Shown here: piece by piece, positions 4,168 through 29,574 of the stretch
Position numbering within the stretch: position 1 is the stretch's first letter
How the letters are laid out: every line of letters begins with the position of its first letter
Assembly: GCF_016862555.1 (NCBI RefSeq)
Contig: NZ_BONE01000087.1
Coordinates: 1-33,695, forward strand
Reading direction: 5' to 3'
DNA length: 33,695 nucleotides
Source of the DNA: Asanoa siamensis
GTDB lineage: Bacteria > Actinomycetota > Actinomycetes > Mycobacteriales > Micromonosporaceae
The notes under the pieces: generated by a model
Told to the model about the DNA's origin: nothing
The model's input: the letters and a program-made list of their open reading frames with translations, nothing else
The model's database searches: none
Translations under genes and position numbers: made by a program

Positions 4168-4452
4168 GTGGGCCGCCGGTACAGCTTCACCGACGACGCG
4201 TTGAGCAACCTCGCGGTCTACGACGTGACACCCGGCGAGGTCTGGGAGGCCCTGCACGGCACCCGGCGGGTCATCCGGCACCTCGACGAGCTCACCGTGG
4301 TCTACGCCGCCAGCCGGCGCGGCCGGCGGCTCGTGGTCCTGCTCGCCGAGACGGAACACGACGACCACGACTTCGACATCCTCTCGGCGCGCGCGATGAC
4401 CGACACGGAGATCAAGCGCTACGAGGAGACCGTTGGCGGTTGGGGGCGGTAG
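4168..4452 (+). CDS. BrnT-like (DUF497-related) putative RNase toxin
   Basis: The 94-residue protein starts GRRYSFTDDALSNLA and has a central strand-rich core (VVYAASRRGRRLVVLLAE). It ends with ILSARAMTDTEIKRYEE, which closely resembles the BrnT C-terminus (IISAR..T..E..YEE). BrnT proteins are small RelE-fold ribonuclease toxins that bind BrnA. Here a ribbon-helix-helix protein follows after 3 bases, in the toxin-first order known for BrnTA. The N-terminal half is divergent from classical BrnT (no FEWD..K start), so catalytic residues cannot be assigned. The toxin role is inferred from the C-terminal motif and the partner gene; activity is unproven. Confidence 0.6.
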   Translation: MGRRYSFTDDALSNLAVYDVTPGEVWEALHGTRRVIRHLDELTVVYAASRRGRRLVVLLAETEHDDHDFDILSARAMTDTEIKRYEETVGGWGR

Positions 4453-4455
4453 GCC

Positions 4456-4767
4456 GTGGACAGAGACCAGGCGATCAAGCGGTTCCACGAAGGCGGCGCG
4501 GACTTCGCCGACCTGATCAGCGACGGAGCGCCCGGCGACCTGCCGGTGCCCGACACCGAGCAGCCGATGGTCAGCCGGTCGGTGCGCCTCCCGCTGCACA
4601 CCTACGAACGGGTCCGGGCCGCCGCCGACGCGCGCGGCATCGGCGTCACCACGCTGATGCGGCAGTGGATCGAGGCGGGGCTCGCCGACCTCGACGACTC
4701 GGCCACGGTGTCCCTGGCCGACCTGCGCCGGGCACTGGCCACCCTGCCCCGCAACCACGCGGCCTGA
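4456..4767 (+). CDS. Ribbon-helix-helix antitoxin-like protein
   Basis: This 103-residue protein starts at a GTG preceded by G-rich sequence inside the end of the upstream gene. Residues about 38-76 form a ribbon-helix-helix: MVSRSVRLPLHTYERVRAA as the strand and helix 1, then GIGVTTLMRQWIEAGL as helix 2, the pattern of CopG/BrnA-type antitoxins. The acidic N-terminal 35 residues could be the toxin-neutralising segment, although in many antitoxins that part is C-terminal. Gap to the toxin is 3 bases, so they are probably co-transcribed and autoregulated. The RHH fold is well supported; pairing with the toxin rests on position. Confidence 0.65.
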   Translation: MDRDQAIKRFHEGGADFADLISDGAPGDLPVPDTEQPMVSRSVRLPLHTYERVRAAADARGIGVTTLMRQWIEAGLADLDDSATVSLADLRRALATLPRNHAA

Positions 4768-4772
4768 CGCGG

Positions 4773-5435
4773 ATGCGCGTCCTGCTGACCGGCACGACCG
4801 GCATGGTCGGTCAAGGGGTCCTGCGCGAGTGCCTGAACGCGCCCGACGTGTCCGAAGTGGTCTCCCTGGGCCGCTCCCCGCTCAACGCCGACCACCCCAA
4901 GCTGCGCTCGATCGTCGTGACCGACCTGTTCGACCTCGACGGCGTCGGCGACGGGCTGGCCGGCATCGACGCCTGCTTCTTCTGCCTCGGCGTCTCGTCG
5001 GTGGGGATGAGCGCGGAGACCTACGAGCGGATCACGTACGACCTGACGCTCGGTGTCGCCGACGCGCTGGCGGCGCGCTCCCCCGGCGCGACCTTCGTCT
5101 ACGTCTCCGGCGCCGGCACCTCCGAGACCTCCCGGCAGCGGTGGGCCCAGGTCAAGGGGCGCACCGAGCGCGAGCTCCTCGAGCGTTTCCCGCAGCGGGG
5201 CTACATGTTCCGGCCCGGGTTCATCCAGCCGTTGCACGGCATCCAGCCGCGCAGCCGGTTCTATCGCGCCCTGATGGCCGGCGGCGGTTGGCTGATCCCG
5301 CTCGTCCGCCGCGCGGCGCCCCGCCAGGTCGTGACGACCGAGGAGGTCGGCCGCGCGATGCTCACCGTGGCCCGCACCAACCCACCGACCCACGTCGTCG
5401 GCAATCCCGAGATCGCGGCCCTGGCCCGCTCCTAG
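4773..5435 (+). CDS. NAD(P)-binding SDR/epimerase-like protein
   Basis: The 220-residue protein has an N-terminal Rossmann motif TGTTGMVGQG (G7, G10, G13) and resembles the atypical short-chain dehydrogenases related to HTATIP2 (CFFCLGVSS, YVSGAG, VKGRTERELL, RPGFIQPLHG). In the position of the catalytic Tyr of YxxxK the sequence reads WAQVK (W124, K128), so classical SDR chemistry is doubtful and a binding or redox-sensor role is possible. The ATG follows the antitoxin stop by 5 bases, so it may be read through from the TA genes. The stop is followed at once by the large palindrome. Substrate is unknown. Confidence 0.75.
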   Translation: MRVLLTGTTGMVGQGVLRECLNAPDVSEVVSLGRSPLNADHPKLRSIVVTDLFDLDGVGDGLAGIDACFFCLGVSSVGMSAETYERITYDLTLGVADALAARSPGATFVYVSGAGTSETSRQRWAQVKGRTERELLERFPQRGYMFRPGFIQPLHGIQPRSRFYRALMAGGGWLIPLVRRAAPRQVVTTEEVGRAMLTVARTNPPTHVVGNPEIAALARS

Positions 5436-5438
5436 GAC

Positions 5439-5494
5439 CGCAAGGAACGGTCCGTTGTTAACGCATGTGCGTTAACAACGGACCGTTCCTTGCG
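5439..5494. repeat. Large palindrome, copy 1, between convergent genes
   Basis: Two 27-base arms (5439-5465 and 5468-5494) are perfectly complementary around a 2-base centre. The palindrome fills the whole space between the SDR stop (5433-5435) and the psuK stop (5495-5497). It shares the 23-base arm core AAGGAACGGTCC + GTTGTTAACGC with the element at 17784-17844. The core itself contains two smaller palindromes, AACGGWCCGTT and GTTAAC. As RNA it would form a very stable hairpin in either direction without a long U tract, so a bidirectional terminator is the simplest role. A dispersed repeat or a protein-binding site is also possible. Confidence 0.9.
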
Positions 5495-6406
5495 TCAGGG
5501 ACGGGCGCCGACGCTGACCACGGCGCGGGCGCCGGCGGCCACCGCGGCCGTCAGGCAGGCGCGTGGGTCGCCGCCGGCCAGCCAGGCCGTCAGCAGGCCG
5601 GCCGCGAACGCGTCACCCGCGCCGGTCGGGTCCACGACGGTCGCGCTGACCGCCGGCACCGCCACCTCGTCGCCGCCCGCGCCGGCCCAGACCGCGCCCG
5701 CGCCGCCGCGCTTGACGACCACCGCCGCGCCCAGCTCCGCCGCGAGCGCACGCGCCTTGTCCCGGCGGTCGGCGGCCAGCACCGCCGCCTCGTCCTCGTT
5801 GGCCAGCAGCAGGTCGACGCCGCGTACCCAGGACCGGAAGGCGGGACCCCCGACCTGCCGCAGCGGGGCCGCGGAGGCAGCGTCGACGCTCACCGTCAGC
5901 CCCAGCCCCCGGGCCACCGCCAGCGCCCGCAGGCCGGCCGGTCGCGACCGCTCGTCGAGCAGCGCGTAGCCCGACAGGTGCAGGTGCCCCGCACCACCGA
6001 CGGCCAGCGCCGCGGCGACCTCGTCCGGGTCGAGCAGCAGGCTGGCGCCGCGGTCGGTGACCATCGTCCGCCGGCCGCCCTCGGCCAGCACGATCACGGT
6101 GCCGGTCGGGGCGCCGGCGCGCGGGGGCAGCGGGCAGTCGACCCCGGCGGCCGCGAGCTCCGCGAGCCGGGCCGCGCCGGCCGCGTCGTCGCCGACCGCC
6201 GCCAGCAGCGTGACCGGCAGGCCGTGCCAGGCCAGCCAGGCCGCCGTGTTCGCCGCCTGGCCACCACCGGTGAACCGGATCGACGCGGCGGTGTCGGTGT
6301 CCGCCGCCGGCGGCCCGGCGAGCACGGCGACGACGTCGGTGACGAGGTCGCCCACTACGGCGACCCGGCTGGCTCTGCCGCCAAGATCGTCAGCGCTTCT
6401 TCTCAT
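5495..6406 (-). CDS. psuK: PfkB-family carbohydrate kinase, probable pseudouridine kinase
   Basis: This 303-residue ribokinase-fold enzyme has the PfkB N-terminal glycine-rich motif ([11 protein letters not shown], about 45-55) and the C-terminal signature [12 protein letters not shown] with the catalytic base D265. The ATG overlaps the psuG stop as ATGA, so it is translationally coupled to the pseudouridine-5'-phosphate glycosidase. That pairing supports a role in phosphorylating pseudouridine to pseudouridine-5'-phosphate, which PsuG then cleaves. Without the neighbour it would only be a generic sugar/nucleoside kinase, so specificity is inferred from context. It ends directly at the large palindrome. 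Confidence 0.82.
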
Positions 6407-15427: not shown

Positions 15428-15459
15428 GAGGGCCCTTCCCGGCTTCGGGAGGGGCCCTC
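15428..15459. terminator. Bidirectional hairpin terminator
   Basis: A 13-bp stem (one G-T pair) with a 6-base loop sits between the convergent peptidase and VOC genes and overlaps the VOC stop codon. There is no long T tract, which is usual in high-GC actinobacteria. Confidence 0.7.
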
Positions 15460-15823
15460 AGCGCCGCCAGGGGTGGTGGATCAGGCAGAACTCGTTGCCT
15501 TCCGGGTCGGCCAGGACCGTGAAGCCCTCGTCGCCCGTCTGGCCGACGTCCGTGCGGGTCGCACCGAGGGTTACCAGGCGGTCGACCTCCTCGGCCACGT
15601 GACCGTCCGGGGCGTAGAGGTCCGGATGGGCGCGGTTCTTGCTCCGCTTGTCGCCCCCGCCGGGCTGGAGCCAGACCGTCAGCGCCCCCGGACCGGCGTC
15701 CGCCGGCGGACGCAGGTGCTGGCCGTCGGCGTCGATCTCGTAGCCCAGCGCCGCCGACCAGAACGCCGCCATCCGGGCCGGGTCGCGGACGTCCAGCGTC
15801 CACTGCGTGAATCGGCTGACCAT
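15458..15823 (-). CDS. VOC/glyoxalase-like domain protein
   Basis: The 121-residue protein has the VOC fold pattern: FTQWTLDVRDPARMAAFWSAALGYEI at the start and FTVLADPEGNEFCLIHHP at the end, the typical metal-edge strand of glyoxalase-like proteins. It resembles the Glyoxalase_6 group common in actinobacteria, for which no substrate is agreed. The start at ATG 15821-15823 gives the standard single-domain length. It is divergent from the methyltransferase gene with 79 bases between starts. Possible activities are dioxygenase, isomerase or antibiotic binding; nothing nearby selects among them. Confidence 0.83.
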   Translation of the reverse strand: MVSRFTQWTLDVRDPARMAAFWSAALGYEIDADGQHLRPPADAGPGALTVWLQPGGGDKRSKNRAHPDLYAPDGHVAEEVDRLVTLGATRTDVGQTGDEGFTVLADPEGNEFCLIHHPWRR

Positions 15824-15889
15824 GCCGCCGACTCTGCCAGCGGGCCGCCATGATCGCCGGGTGGCGGCGGCGACGACAGCCGGGGCTGG

Positions 15890-15895
15890 CAGGAT
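15890..15895 (+). promoter_or_regulatory. -10 element of the methyltransferase-dtd operon (leaderless)
   Basis: CAGGAT, one base from TAGGAT, is followed by seven bases and the GTG at 15903. An in-frame ATG at 15894 overlaps this hexamer, so the GTG is preferred as the start. Confidence 0.35.
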
Positions 15896-15902
15896 GCCGT
15901 AC

Positions 15903-17372
15903 GTGTCCGACATGCTCCTGCCCCCCGATGGTGTCGCGCGGTTGCGGGACGCGCTCCAGGCGACCGGTTTCACCTCGGCGGGGATCGCCGCACGGCTCGG
16001 GCCGGCGGCCACCGCCGCGGTCGCGCGCAACGACTTCCGGGCCGCCCTGCGGATCACCGAGGACCGCGACCCGCTCAGCACGCTGATCCGGGTCTTCGTC
16101 TGCGCGCAGAGCGAGCCCGTCGAGGCCGTCGCCGCCGCGCTCGCGCCGCTGGACTTCGCCGAGGCGTTCGACGCCGGGCTGGTCGAGGCGGCGCCGGGCG
16201 GCCTGGTGCGGCAGGGCGTCGACCTCGAACCGTACGGCGACTCCTGGTGGGTGCTCTCCGACGTGCCCTCGTCGGCCCGGCCCGACCAGCCGCTGCGCCC
16301 CGACCACGTGCTCGGCATCGGCGGCGCCTCCTCGACCCTGGTCTCCGCCGCTATCCGCCGGCCGGTCGGCACCGCGCTCGACCTCGGCACCGGGTGTGGC
16401 GTACAGGCGCTGCACCTCGCCACCCACGCCGGGTCGGTCACCGCGACCGACCTGTCGCAGCGGGCCTTGCGGTTCGCCGCCACCACCGCGGCGCTCAGCG
16501 GGCAGCAGTGGGAGATGCTCGGCGGCGACCTGGTCGCGCCGGTCCGCGGCCGGCGGTTCGACCTCGTCGTCAGCAACCCCCCGTTCGTGATCGGGCCCGG
16601 CACCACCACGCACACCTACCGCGACTCGGGACGGGCCGGCGACGCGGTCTGCGCCGAGCTCGCCGCAGCCGCGCCGGACCTGCTCGCCGAGGGCGGCGTG
16701 ATGCAGTTCCTGGCCAACTGGGAACACGTCGCCGGTGAGGACTGGGGCGACCGGGTCGCCGGCTGGTTCGCCGGCACCGGGCTCGACGCCTGGGTGATCC
16801 AGCGCGAGGTCGCGGACCCGATGGCGTACGTCGGGCTGTGGCTCGCCGACGCCAACGAGGACGGCGACCCGGCCCGCGCCGCCGCCTGGCTCGACTGGTT
16901 CGACGCCAACGACGTCGAGGCGATCGGGTTCGGCCTCGTCACGCTGCGCCGGTCCGGGCACGACGACCCGGTCGTCCGCGTGGAGGACCTGCGCCAGCAG
17001 ACGCAGCAGCCGCTCGGCGACCAGATCGCCGCCTGGTTCGACCGGCAGGACTTCGTCCGGGGTGCCGACCTGCTGGCCGCCCGCTACCGCACCGCGCCGG
17101 GCCTGCGGCTCCAGCAGGAGGCCACGCTGGGTGACGAGGGCTGGGCGGTGGACCGGCAGGTGCTGGTGATGCCGTCGGGGCTGCGCTGGAGCGAGGAGGT
17201 CGACCCGCTGGTGCTCGCCCTGGTCAGCGGCGCCGACGGGCAGGTGCCGCTGCGCGACCAGCTCGCGGTGCTGGCCGCCGCCCACGAGGTCGCCGAGGAG
17301 GACCTGGCCGACGCCGCCGGGCCGATCGTGGCGCACCTGGTCGAGCGCGGCATCGTGGAGCCGGTCGCGTGA
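15903..17372 (+). CDS. Class I SAM-dependent methyltransferase (DUF7059/HemK-like)
   Basis: The 489-residue protein has an N-terminal helical DUF7059-like domain (about 1-130). A Rossmann methyltransferase domain follows with the SAM motif [15 protein letters not shown] and the catalytic motif [18 protein letters not shown] motifs transfer methyl groups to amide or exocyclic nitrogen, as in PrmC or N6-adenine enzymes. The C-terminal ~150 residues form an extra helical domain. The substrate is unknown; rRNA, tRNA or protein glutamine are all possible. The stop overlaps the dtd GTG (GTGA), so it is coupled with a tRNA quality-control gene, a slight hint toward a translation-related role. Confidence 0.83.
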
Positions 17373-17791
17373 GGGCGCTGGTCCAGACGGTCTCGCGCGC
17401 GTCGGTGACCGTCGACGACGAGGTCGTGGGGTCGATCTCCGACGGGTTGCTGGTGCTGCTCGGGGTCACCCACAGCGACGATCCCGCCAAGGCCGACACG
17501 CTCGCCCGCAAGGTCTGGGAGCTGCGGATCCTCGACGACGAGAAGTCGGCGAGCGATGTCGGCGCACCCGTCCTGGTGGTCAGCCAGTTCACGTTGTACG
17601 CGGACGCGCGCAAAGGGCGCCGGCCGAGCTGGTCCGCCGCGGCACCGGCCGAGGTGGCCGAGCCGCTGGTGACCGCGTTCGCCGACGCCCTGCGGAACCG
17701 TGGCGCGCACGTCGAGACGGGCCGGTTCCGGACCCACATGCTCGTGGAGAGCGTGAACGTGGGCCCGCGAACCGTGGTGCTGGAGCTGTAA
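17369..17791 (+). CDS. dtd: D-aminoacyl-tRNA deacylase
   Basis: The 140-residue enzyme hydrolyses D-aminoacyl-tRNA (and glycyl-tRNA-Ala) to protect translation from D-amino acids. It shows the DTD start [21 protein letters not shown], the active-site motif SQFTLYAD (72-79) and the C-terminal NVGPRT with the Gly-Pro pair (132-133) that gives chiral selection. Length is standard. The GTG start overlaps the upstream methyltransferase stop by four bases. The stop codon lies inside the left arm of the second large palindrome. Confidence 0.95.
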
Positions 17792-17844
17792 GGAACGGTC
17801 CGTTGTTAACGCTATGCGTTAACAACGGACCGTTCCTTACAGCT
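17784..17844. repeat. Large palindrome, copy 2, between convergent genes
   Basis: Two 29-base arms (17784-17812 and 17816-17844) are perfectly complementary around TAT. The element runs from the last codons of dtd to inside the stop codon of the Spo0M gene, so the 51-base intergenic gap is entirely palindrome. Its arms share 23 consecutive bases with copy 1 at 5439-5494, while the outer ends and centres differ. The outer bases have been fitted to the two gene ends (CTGTAA / TTACAG). A bidirectional terminator hairpin is the simplest reading; dispersal in the genome is inferred from the second copy. Confidence 0.9.
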
Positions 17845-18631
17845 AGCCGAACAGGCCCCGCTTGCGGAGGGACTGCTCGAGCCAGCCGTGCAGCTGGGCG
17901 GCCCAGTCGGTCTGGCCGGCGGTCGCGTAGTCGACGTTGAACCGGCCGAACGTGTCGTGGCCCTCGGTGAACAGGCCGCCGCGCTTGTCGAGCTCCAGCA
18001 CCACCTGCAGGTGCTGTGGCGTGGCCAGGAAGGTCACCTCGAGCTGGTTGCTCGCCCGCGCGTACTGCGGCGGCGGGTAGAACTCGATCTCCTGGTAGAA
18101 CGGCAGGCTCTGCTGGACGCCGTAGACGCGGCCGCTCTCGACGTCGGCCCGGGAGAACCGGAAGCCGAGCCGGAGCAGGCCGTCGAGGATGGCCTCCTGG
18201 GCCGGCAGCGGGTGCACGGCCACGGCGTCGAGGTCGCCCTTGTCGACCGCGCGGGCCACCTCGAGCTCGGTGCGCAGCGCCATCGTCATGCCGTGCAGGT
18301 GCTGCCCGTACACCTCGGTGATCGGGGTCTCCCAGGGCACGTCGAAGCGGAACGGGATGTCGTAGCGCTGCTTGGGCTCCAGGCGGAAGGCGCCGGTCGC
18401 GCGCTGGCGGTGGAACTCGGTCGTCGAGTCGTACTCGGCATCGCCGCTCTCCACCTCGACCCGGGTGACCATGCCGAGGGCGACGTACTCGATGTCGACC
18501 GCGTGGTCGCCGCCCTCGACGTGGATCTGGCCCTCGAGGAAACCGCCGGGGCGGCAGTTGGGGTTGGACAGCACCGTCTCGACGGACGGCCCACCGACGC
18601 CCAAGGCCTGCATCATTCGCTTGAAGACCAC
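17843..18631 (-). CDS. spo0M: Spo0M family sporulation-control-like protein
   Basis: The 262-residue arrestin-like Spo0M family protein starts [20 protein letters not shown], as Spo0M proteins do (MFKK..A..GIGG..VDT). It continues with the first beta-sandwich ([25 protein letters not shown]) and second domain ([27 protein letters not shown]). The GTG at 18629-18631 has AGAAAGG six bases upstream; an upstream in-frame extension of 19 residues has no support. Spo0M in Bacillus affects sporulation and cell-shape processes. In actinobacteria its role is not established; the presence fits a sporulating lineage. It stands alone, divergent from the second sigma factor. Confidence 0.85.
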
Positions 18632-18850
18632 GACGTGCCTTTCTGGTGTGAAGTTGTCGAGCAGACTAGCCGCCGGCGGCAACGGCACACGGTCGTGACG
18701 CGGTTCCGACCCTCAAATGCCGCAAGTCAGGCATATGGGCTCCCGGATTCATGCCACCCGCGGATTCTCCTCACCTCCGCTTCACGCCCCTTGCGGGAAG
18801 CTCTTCCCACGGCACACTCCGACGGTGTCGGGAAGCGGGGTAGCAGGAAC

Positions 18851-29532: not shown

Positions 29533-29574
29533 ACGCGGAAGGGGAGCCGATCGAGATCGGCTCCCCTTCCGCGT
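29533..29574. terminator. Long perfect palindrome terminator downstream of nrdJ
   Basis: Arms 29533-29552 and 29555-29574 are perfectly complementary for 20 bases around GA, an unusually long stem. It starts 9 bases after the nrdJ stop on the minus strand and about 105 bases after the DUF6582 stop. A bidirectional terminator is the likely role. Sequence is unrelated to the two large palindromes elsewhere. Confidence 0.75.

Follow-up and report, generated by a model that had tools for sequence, protein, structure and literature searches.

Frequent bracketing of an AbiEi/Vsr-like nuclease gene by dispersed palindromes in Asanoa and its relatives suggests a REP-like mobile repeat of an unrecognised kind

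Repetitive extragenic palindromes (REPs) are dispersed in tens to hundreds of copies, single or as inverted pairs (REPINs), and accompany a REP-associated tyrosine transposase (RAYT or TnpA-REP; together a REPtron) whose gene is bracketed by the repeats and whose lineage goes with the repeat type. To our knowledge, REP-like palindromes have so far been tied to HUH tyrosine transposases and to no other class of enzyme. One report describes CGTC-tagged REPs without a dedicated transposase (PMC3733652). Here we analyse a palindrome family of the actinomycete Asanoa siamensis that is like REP/RAYT in its numbers and forms, in the bracketing of a cognate enzyme gene and in the match of repeat type and enzyme lineage, but unlike it in that the partner is an AbiEi/Vsr-like nuclease instead of a Y1 HUH tyrosine transposase and that the gene lies within long nested inverted repeats. 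The family was met in a stretch of 33,695 nucleotides (contig NZ_BONE01000087.1; hereafter the window) as two simple elements 12.3 kb apart with the common core AAGGAACGGTCCGTTGTTAACGC, namely copy 1 (arms 5439-5465/5468-5494, 27 nt matching at 100%, loop 2 nt) and copy 2 (arms 17784-17812/17816-17844, 29 nt at 100%, loop 3 nt). The frequent bracketing of the nuclease gene by palindromes of the family suggests that such repeats, REP-like and mobile, are of a kind not recognised before and have a nuclease of their own, and we consider it probable that these are REP-like mobile palindromes with the AbiEi/Vsr-like nuclease as cognate enzyme, acting as bidirectional 3'-end hairpins where they landed. 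Among the open-licence literature matches listed, none described these palindromes or linked this gene to repeats.

The window belongs to a draft genome of 8,781,664 bases in 219 contigs (G000), which was compared with 250 genomes of its family, including six of its genus (G000, G052, G088, G018, G072 and G101), with the reversed pattern as chance control for palindrome searches. The preliminary description of the window had argued from copies 1 and 2 for a dispersed element family beyond chance, and the genome bears this out: the 15-nt arm has 43 exact copies in G000 (22 forward, 21 reverse; reversed control 0), and the 21-nt unit was found at 66 places with up to 3 mismatches (control 0). 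The basic unit, R, approximates AAGGAASGGNCCSTTNTTAAC and occurs in simple palindromes (inverted R pairs), in half units carrying the linker GCTTTCCGCATA or variants of it, and in nested inverted units of the order R1-linker-R2-loop-R2'-linker-R1'; the near-palindrome AACGGWCCGTT reported inside the arms is real. Nor is the family limited to two copies or to one species: the exact 13-nt arm is abundant in G000 (60), G052 (121) and G088 (61), only three of the six genus genomes, with one copy in G018, none in G072 or G101 and 0-5 in the other family genomes, and all 14 of 14 named matches of the palindrome were to Asanoa iriomotensis NBRC 100142 (G052). The G018 element is the same, except that its core is AAGGGWCCCTT instead of AACGGWCCGTT, altered in both arms. 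A degenerate pattern covering the core variants, AGGARSGGNNCSTTNTTAWC, reached at least 10 copies in 44 of the 250 genomes (reversed controls 0) and 5 copies each in G072 and G101. No palindrome copy with 13-nt arms was found in viral contigs. A 400-kb sample of G000 held 12 palindromes with arms of at least 14 nt and loops of at most 12 nt (0 after simple shuffling), with no member of the R family among them (about 1.6 expected). In one convergent gap of G088 (L249, G088:C1:1939892-1940584) an older-type nested element adjoins newer-type units, a layer of repeat turnover made visible.

One nested G000 copy encloses an open reading frame of 331 aa with an N-terminal AbiEi-type region (AbiEi_4) and a C-terminal Vsr/EDxHD-like nuclease fold (MTES_1575-like). 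Pfam, the PADLOC AbiEi models and the fold support the AbiEi winged-helix region (29 of 29 proteins), and the nuclease domain is Vsr-like, with a restriction-like fold and a conserved nuclease motif. Homologs at E<=1e-20 are present in 55 of the 250 family genomes. At the 30 best family loci, inverted repeats of at least 13 nt span the gene in 27 and repeats of at least 16 nt in 24, most of them recognisably of R type, while 1000 random places per setting gave spans of at least 13 nt at 30-67 (3-7%) and of at least 16 nt at 0-7. The G018 ortholog, 76% identical and in the same place, is bracketed by that genome's own GGGWCCC repeats; the G088 site is a decayed remnant with older GGGACCC repeats, and G101 has no remnant. 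Twenty further loci had spanning repeats of at least 13 nt in 7 (at least 16 nt in 4), three of the 7 being g17 loci with R-type repeats and four being others, and several more showed strong one-sided palindromes of different sequence. The palindrome TGATCAGSGKMRTTTY is dispersed in the g39 genomes G080 (22), G039 (17) and G094 (19), with 0 in G061, G072 and G101 and in the controls, and most dispersed copies in G039 and G094 are of the form that adjoins the gene. The homolog at G146:C10:92570-93455, in a genome with 162 repeat copies, lies in two overlapping pieces, apparently owing to a frameshift.

The pattern extends beyond the family. In a wider set of 397 genomes of the order, 72 (19 of them of the own family) carry homologs at E<=1e-25, and among 32 loci from other families (two listed twice) spanning repeats of at least 13 nt occur in 21 and of at least 16 nt in 15, reaching 52 nt; at L300, one of the 21, an arm lies at the gene edge. 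In G318, a genome of another family with five homologs, the gene-side palindromes of four recur in a 400-kb sample with 7, 1, 4 and 2 matches at up to 2 mismatches and the fifth with 0; none recurs in shuffled or in G000 DNA, and two of the five loci are one-sided only. That sample held 26 palindromes (arms of at least 14 nt, loops of at most 12 nt; 0 after simple shuffling), 7 of which were linked to gene flanks by 12-mers (control mean 1.6, maximum 10); because of this control maximum, the mismatch-limited core counts were used instead. Six palindromes of the G318 sample (at L333, L339, L343 and L347, and two at L344) have the centre TTGCAAAATTTGCAA in common, on either strand, and share 12-mers with the flank of homolog L312. 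We give about even chances to a broader view, in which a superfamily of mobile palindromes spans several families of one actinobacterial order. Each lineage of the nuclease gene would keep its own palindrome, both as terminal repeat and as non-coding offspring numbering from tens to hundreds; cutting of the palindrome by the enzyme would drive copying and in-place conversion; the repeat sequence would change in step with the enzyme; and the offspring would be put to use by the host as bidirectional hairpins at gene ends. Such a system would parallel REP/RAYT by convergence, with an enzyme of the homing-endonuclease type in place of the transposase.

Gene and repeats also go together across genomes. 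Comparing the presence of at least 10 repeats with that of a gene of at least 50% identity in the 250 family genomes, we counted 35 with both, 9 with repeats only, 3 with the gene only and 203 with neither (Fisher p 7.8e-31). Counting every homolog at E<=1e-20 instead gave 36, 8, 19 and 187 (p 5.9e-22); both tests ignore kinship. Within genus g4, each of the 19 genomes with the gene is rich in repeats, and 3 other repeat-rich genomes are without it. No Y1_Tnp (PF01797) was found by profile search in G000, G052 or G088 (the search control gave matches in 5 of 14 family genomes), and a RAYT/Y1 transposase was rejected as partner on this ground. GTAG lies within 8 nt of either hairpin base in 2 of 40 cases, CGTC within 8 nt of the base in 12 of 40 on any strand and in 0 of 40 in sense position, and neither occurs inside the elements. 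With no Y1 transposase and no GTAG/CGTC tag, two defining features of REP/RAYT systems fail. The earlier proposal of a REP-like repeat spread by a transposase is borne out in its main lines: the elements are dispersed, sites are occupied or empty between species and there is a partner gene, but the partner is an AbiEi/Vsr-like nuclease and not a known transposase. The whole is functionally REP/RAYT-like and, if the mechanism set out below holds, would form a separate class by its enzyme.

Several observations weigh against a mobile palindrome with the nuclease as its enzyme. G052 (121 arms) and G088 (61) are rich in CGGWCCG copies and have no close homolog, just ones of 29-30% identity; since the G088 remnant has older repeats only, the newer G088 copies must stem from another gene copy, from spread before the loss, or have arisen otherwise. 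In eight of the 44 repeat-rich genomes no homolog reaches E 1e-20, and in 19 genomes that have the gene the R repeat pattern is missing, their repeats being different or absent. Bracketing is partial beyond the closest group, with no 13-nt spanning repeat in 13 of 20 and 11 of 32 loci, and in G080 the dispersed copies are mainly a sister variant of the gene-side palindrome. MTES_1575 in the G000 protein scores under the Pfam cut-off, and one of the six genus genomes, G018, does have a Y1_Tnp match, partial (positions 47-121 of 121) and with one stop inside. Grouped by linked similarity, 27 of the 30 best loci have one 5' context in common and 26 one 3' context, with three g17 loci forming another, so that the AbiEi/Vsr-like gene is mostly inherited in place, as RAYT genes are, and rarely moves. 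Finally, no target duplication was evident when occupied and empty sites were compared by eye between species (matches of 69-98% identity).

That no target duplication was seen, at a divergence that weakens the comparison, also bears on whether the elements are miniature inverted-repeat transposable elements (MITEs) of a conventional insertion sequence, mobilised in trans by an unrecognised transposase. The likeness is real, in that MITEs are short non-coding inverted-repeat elements apparently related to a longer coding one, and here nested terminal inverted repeats surround an open reading frame, small derivatives lack coding DNA and some sites are empty. Yet among the 66 G000 places coding DNA is enclosed just in the AbiEi/nuclease copy and between two half units around a 1.5-kb proB stretch; the coding copy has no known transposase, Y1_Tnp, the one transposase family searched in the genome, being absent from G000. 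We regard MITEs as quite improbable. The half elements of the proB stretch (L159, 1919-1975 and 3461-3515; G000:C68) are inverted around 1.5 kb with proB and an MGMT-like gene, resembling a host-gene composite. The proB segment was rejected as a coding element of the R family, for it holds housekeeping genes.

Occupancy of orthologous gaps is lineage-specific. Between dtd and the Spo0M gene, where copy 2 lies, G000, G052 and G088 carry a copy, and in G018, G101 and G072 the gap is empty, the stops overlapping or lying a few bases apart. The copy 1 gap, between a short-chain dehydrogenase/reductase (SDR) gene and psuK, is occupied in G000 and G052, is empty in G088, where the stops overlap (CCTAGG), and in G018, G072 and G101 holds longer, unrelated sequence. 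In the G018 gap (L121) the place of an R element is taken by an operator-like palindrome, approximately TTAGTGAGCGCTCACT, in three closely similar copies; in those of G072 and G101 there is a different palindrome, AGATCTAGGWAAA, with its mirror. Palindromes of the AGATCTAGGWAAA kind also adjoin, on one side only, the 30-34% identical AbiEi-nuclease homologs of G101/G072 (L261, 2150-2199; L262, 1710-1905). Of 13 further flank pairs, L008 yielded no orthologs that could be used and that of the gene site was treated separately; at the 11 remaining loci we sorted 52 of 55 locus-genome pairs by eye and found an R element in 14, a short gap without R or a clear hairpin in 28, an unrelated GC hairpin in 8 and a longer other insertion in 2. 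The GC hairpins are carried by some other species at three of the 11 loci, L013 (where R occurs in two species and GC hairpins in four), L031 and L019. At L019 five of the six species have the R palindrome, its core depending on the lineage and both arms altered alike, and L007 has the nested form in four genomes, G000, G052, G018 and G088, in the last as an older-type copy beside newer-type units. At L019 and at L077/L252 the loops of orthologous palindromes in G000 and A. iriomotensis are near reverse complements (CTTTC vs GAAAC), as though the loop had been flipped.

The convergent setting of the two window copies is the prevailing one in the genome. We compiled 35 G000 elements from arm and unit matches, leaving aside copies of the older type (C1:51214, for instance). 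A codon-usage score that had been trained on nine genes placed 26 of them between convergent genes and 8 between genes on the same strand, with 1 unclear; random orientation would give one quarter convergent, a reasoned rather than measured figure. An orientation based on GC3 (17 convergent, 16 same strand, 1 divergent, 1 unclear) was dropped as it misplaced both window copies. Copies 1 and 2 are predicted to fold as RNA at -52.6 kcal/mol (5436-5500; z -10.7) and -55.8 kcal/mol (17781-17850; z -13.3). Among 11 distinct 49-nt elements, hand-picked from the variants seen and mutually related, two-sided changes occur in 8 of 23 pairs and 98.4% of cells are paired, and none of 500 shuffles reaches either value. 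Similarly, symmetry extends past AAGG/CCTT in 40 palindromes by a mean of 2.05 nt, vs 0.78 with permuted flanks (maximum 1.53 in 2000). Symmetric extension and paired changes fit selection for pairing and also hairpin-templated DNA copying, and they do not tell RNA from DNA hairpins.

One alternative is that the copies are selected bidirectional terminators at convergent gene ends, with gene conversion or duplication as the source of their common sequence and with a nuclease gene that is incidental. The convergent majority, the strong hairpins, the arm extension specific to each copy and the GC hairpins that stand in the same gap at L013, L031 and L019 (8 of 52 comparisons) all favour it, and ordinary bidirectional intrinsic terminators are likewise strong hairpins between convergent stops. 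A terminator, however, does not need a shared sequence of 23 nt, a lineage-specific dispersed family or a partner gene; 28 of the 52 orthologous gaps are short and hairpin-free, the hairpin core of the window copies is followed by TTCCTT, a weak T-tract, and neither the co-occurrence nor the fact that palindromes of many different sequences bracket a single gene family would be explained. Taken as the whole explanation this is rather unlikely, and the bidirectional terminator family of the preliminary description is retained as a plausible secondary role. For its third suggestion, a chromosome-organising site, nothing was found, though no test by the positions of the copies was made. That both arms change together, as if tracking a changing protein, might alternatively point to immobile binding sites of an AbiEi-like regulator or a nucleoid protein, kept by selection, and the AbiEi-type region and the palindromes adjoining its own gene agree with this. 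Such sites would, however, be expected neither at 26 of 35 positions between convergent 3' ends, away from promoters, nor in gaps that are short and empty in other species; G052 and G088 retain many of them without a close homolog, and a conserved nuclease motif would be superfluous for a regulator. We judge binding sites improbable.

The nuclease fold is shared with the EDxHD/Vsr-like homing endonuclease I-Bth0305I, which, according to a review, acts as a dimer on a target site almost 60 bp long (PMC3943268), a length that suits the 44-60-nt palindromes. Unlike that of I-Bth0305I, the gene here lies in no intron or intein as far as it was read, goes with many dispersed palindromic copies and encodes an AbiEi-type N-terminal part. 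By Pfam, PADLOC and fold this part resembles AbiEi, the antitoxin of the AbiE type IV toxin-antitoxin system, from which the protein differs by its fusion to a nuclease domain; the G000 gene has glyS and an XdhC-like gene as neighbours, and no AbiEii-like toxin was noticed beside it (neighbours read by eye, with no family search). The PADLOC match and the restriction-like fold could indicate an anti-phage or plasmid-defence nuclease, with palindromes that mark or protect self DNA. Against this stand the neighbours as read, with no toxin among them, the many relatives that have neither gene nor repeats and the search of the phage collection, which gave no homologous protein; the plasmids gave one homolog, in Rhodococcus ruber (32% identical). 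A role in defence is very improbable.

Within the window, copy 1 starts 3 nt after the SDR/epimerase-type gene (4440..5435, +; PF01370, E 7.7e-6) and is abutted by the stop codon of a PfkB-family kinase gene, the one earlier labelled psuK (5495..6406, -; PF00294, E 6.9e-49). Copy 2 contains the TAA stop of dtd, the D-Tyr-tRNA deacylase gene (17369..17791, +; PF02580, E 2.1e-47), and its end overlaps the stop of the Spo0M gene (17843..18688, -; PF07070, E 6e-84). Two perfect large palindromes in convergent gaps, as first noted, are thus confirmed, copy 1 between the stops and copy 2 overlapping both. An Rfam search of the window gave no match, and NCBIfam returned nothing for three of the proteins searched. 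A further perfect palindrome, ACGCGGAAGGGGAGCCGATC (29533-29574; arms 20 nt, loop 2 nt), stands 9 nt beyond the stop of a class II ribonucleotide reductase; it has zero copies among the 111 loci compared and looks like an ordinary single terminator. Around 15480-15620, within a glyoxalase-like gene (15458-16615, -), many short matches of about 68-97% identity elsewhere in five related genomes are probably paralogous domains.

What we infer about mobilisation of R, its cleavage and termination at its copies can be put as follows for REP-like palindromes with a cognate nuclease. The cognate gene, present mostly as a single close homolog in a genome and lying between inverted R units itself, would encode a protein that binds R as hairpin, cruciform or duplex and nicks or cuts it. 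Cutting and repair may then carry copies of R to other sites and convert existing copies into one another, and conversion would give the turnover from GGGNCCC to CGGWCCG types. Copies would survive mainly between convergent 3' ends, where they may do no harm or may even serve as bidirectional terminators or as hairpins at mRNA ends. A palindrome family here goes with an unrelated nuclease, and does so repeatedly, with different palindromes, so that one protein and one oligonucleotide would suffice to test what spreads a REP family. If this proves true, Vsr-like nucleases would join the enzymes that spread DNA, the lineage-specific hairpins in convergent gaps of many actinobacteria would be explained, and there would be a system in which to follow the joint change of an enzyme and its target sites.
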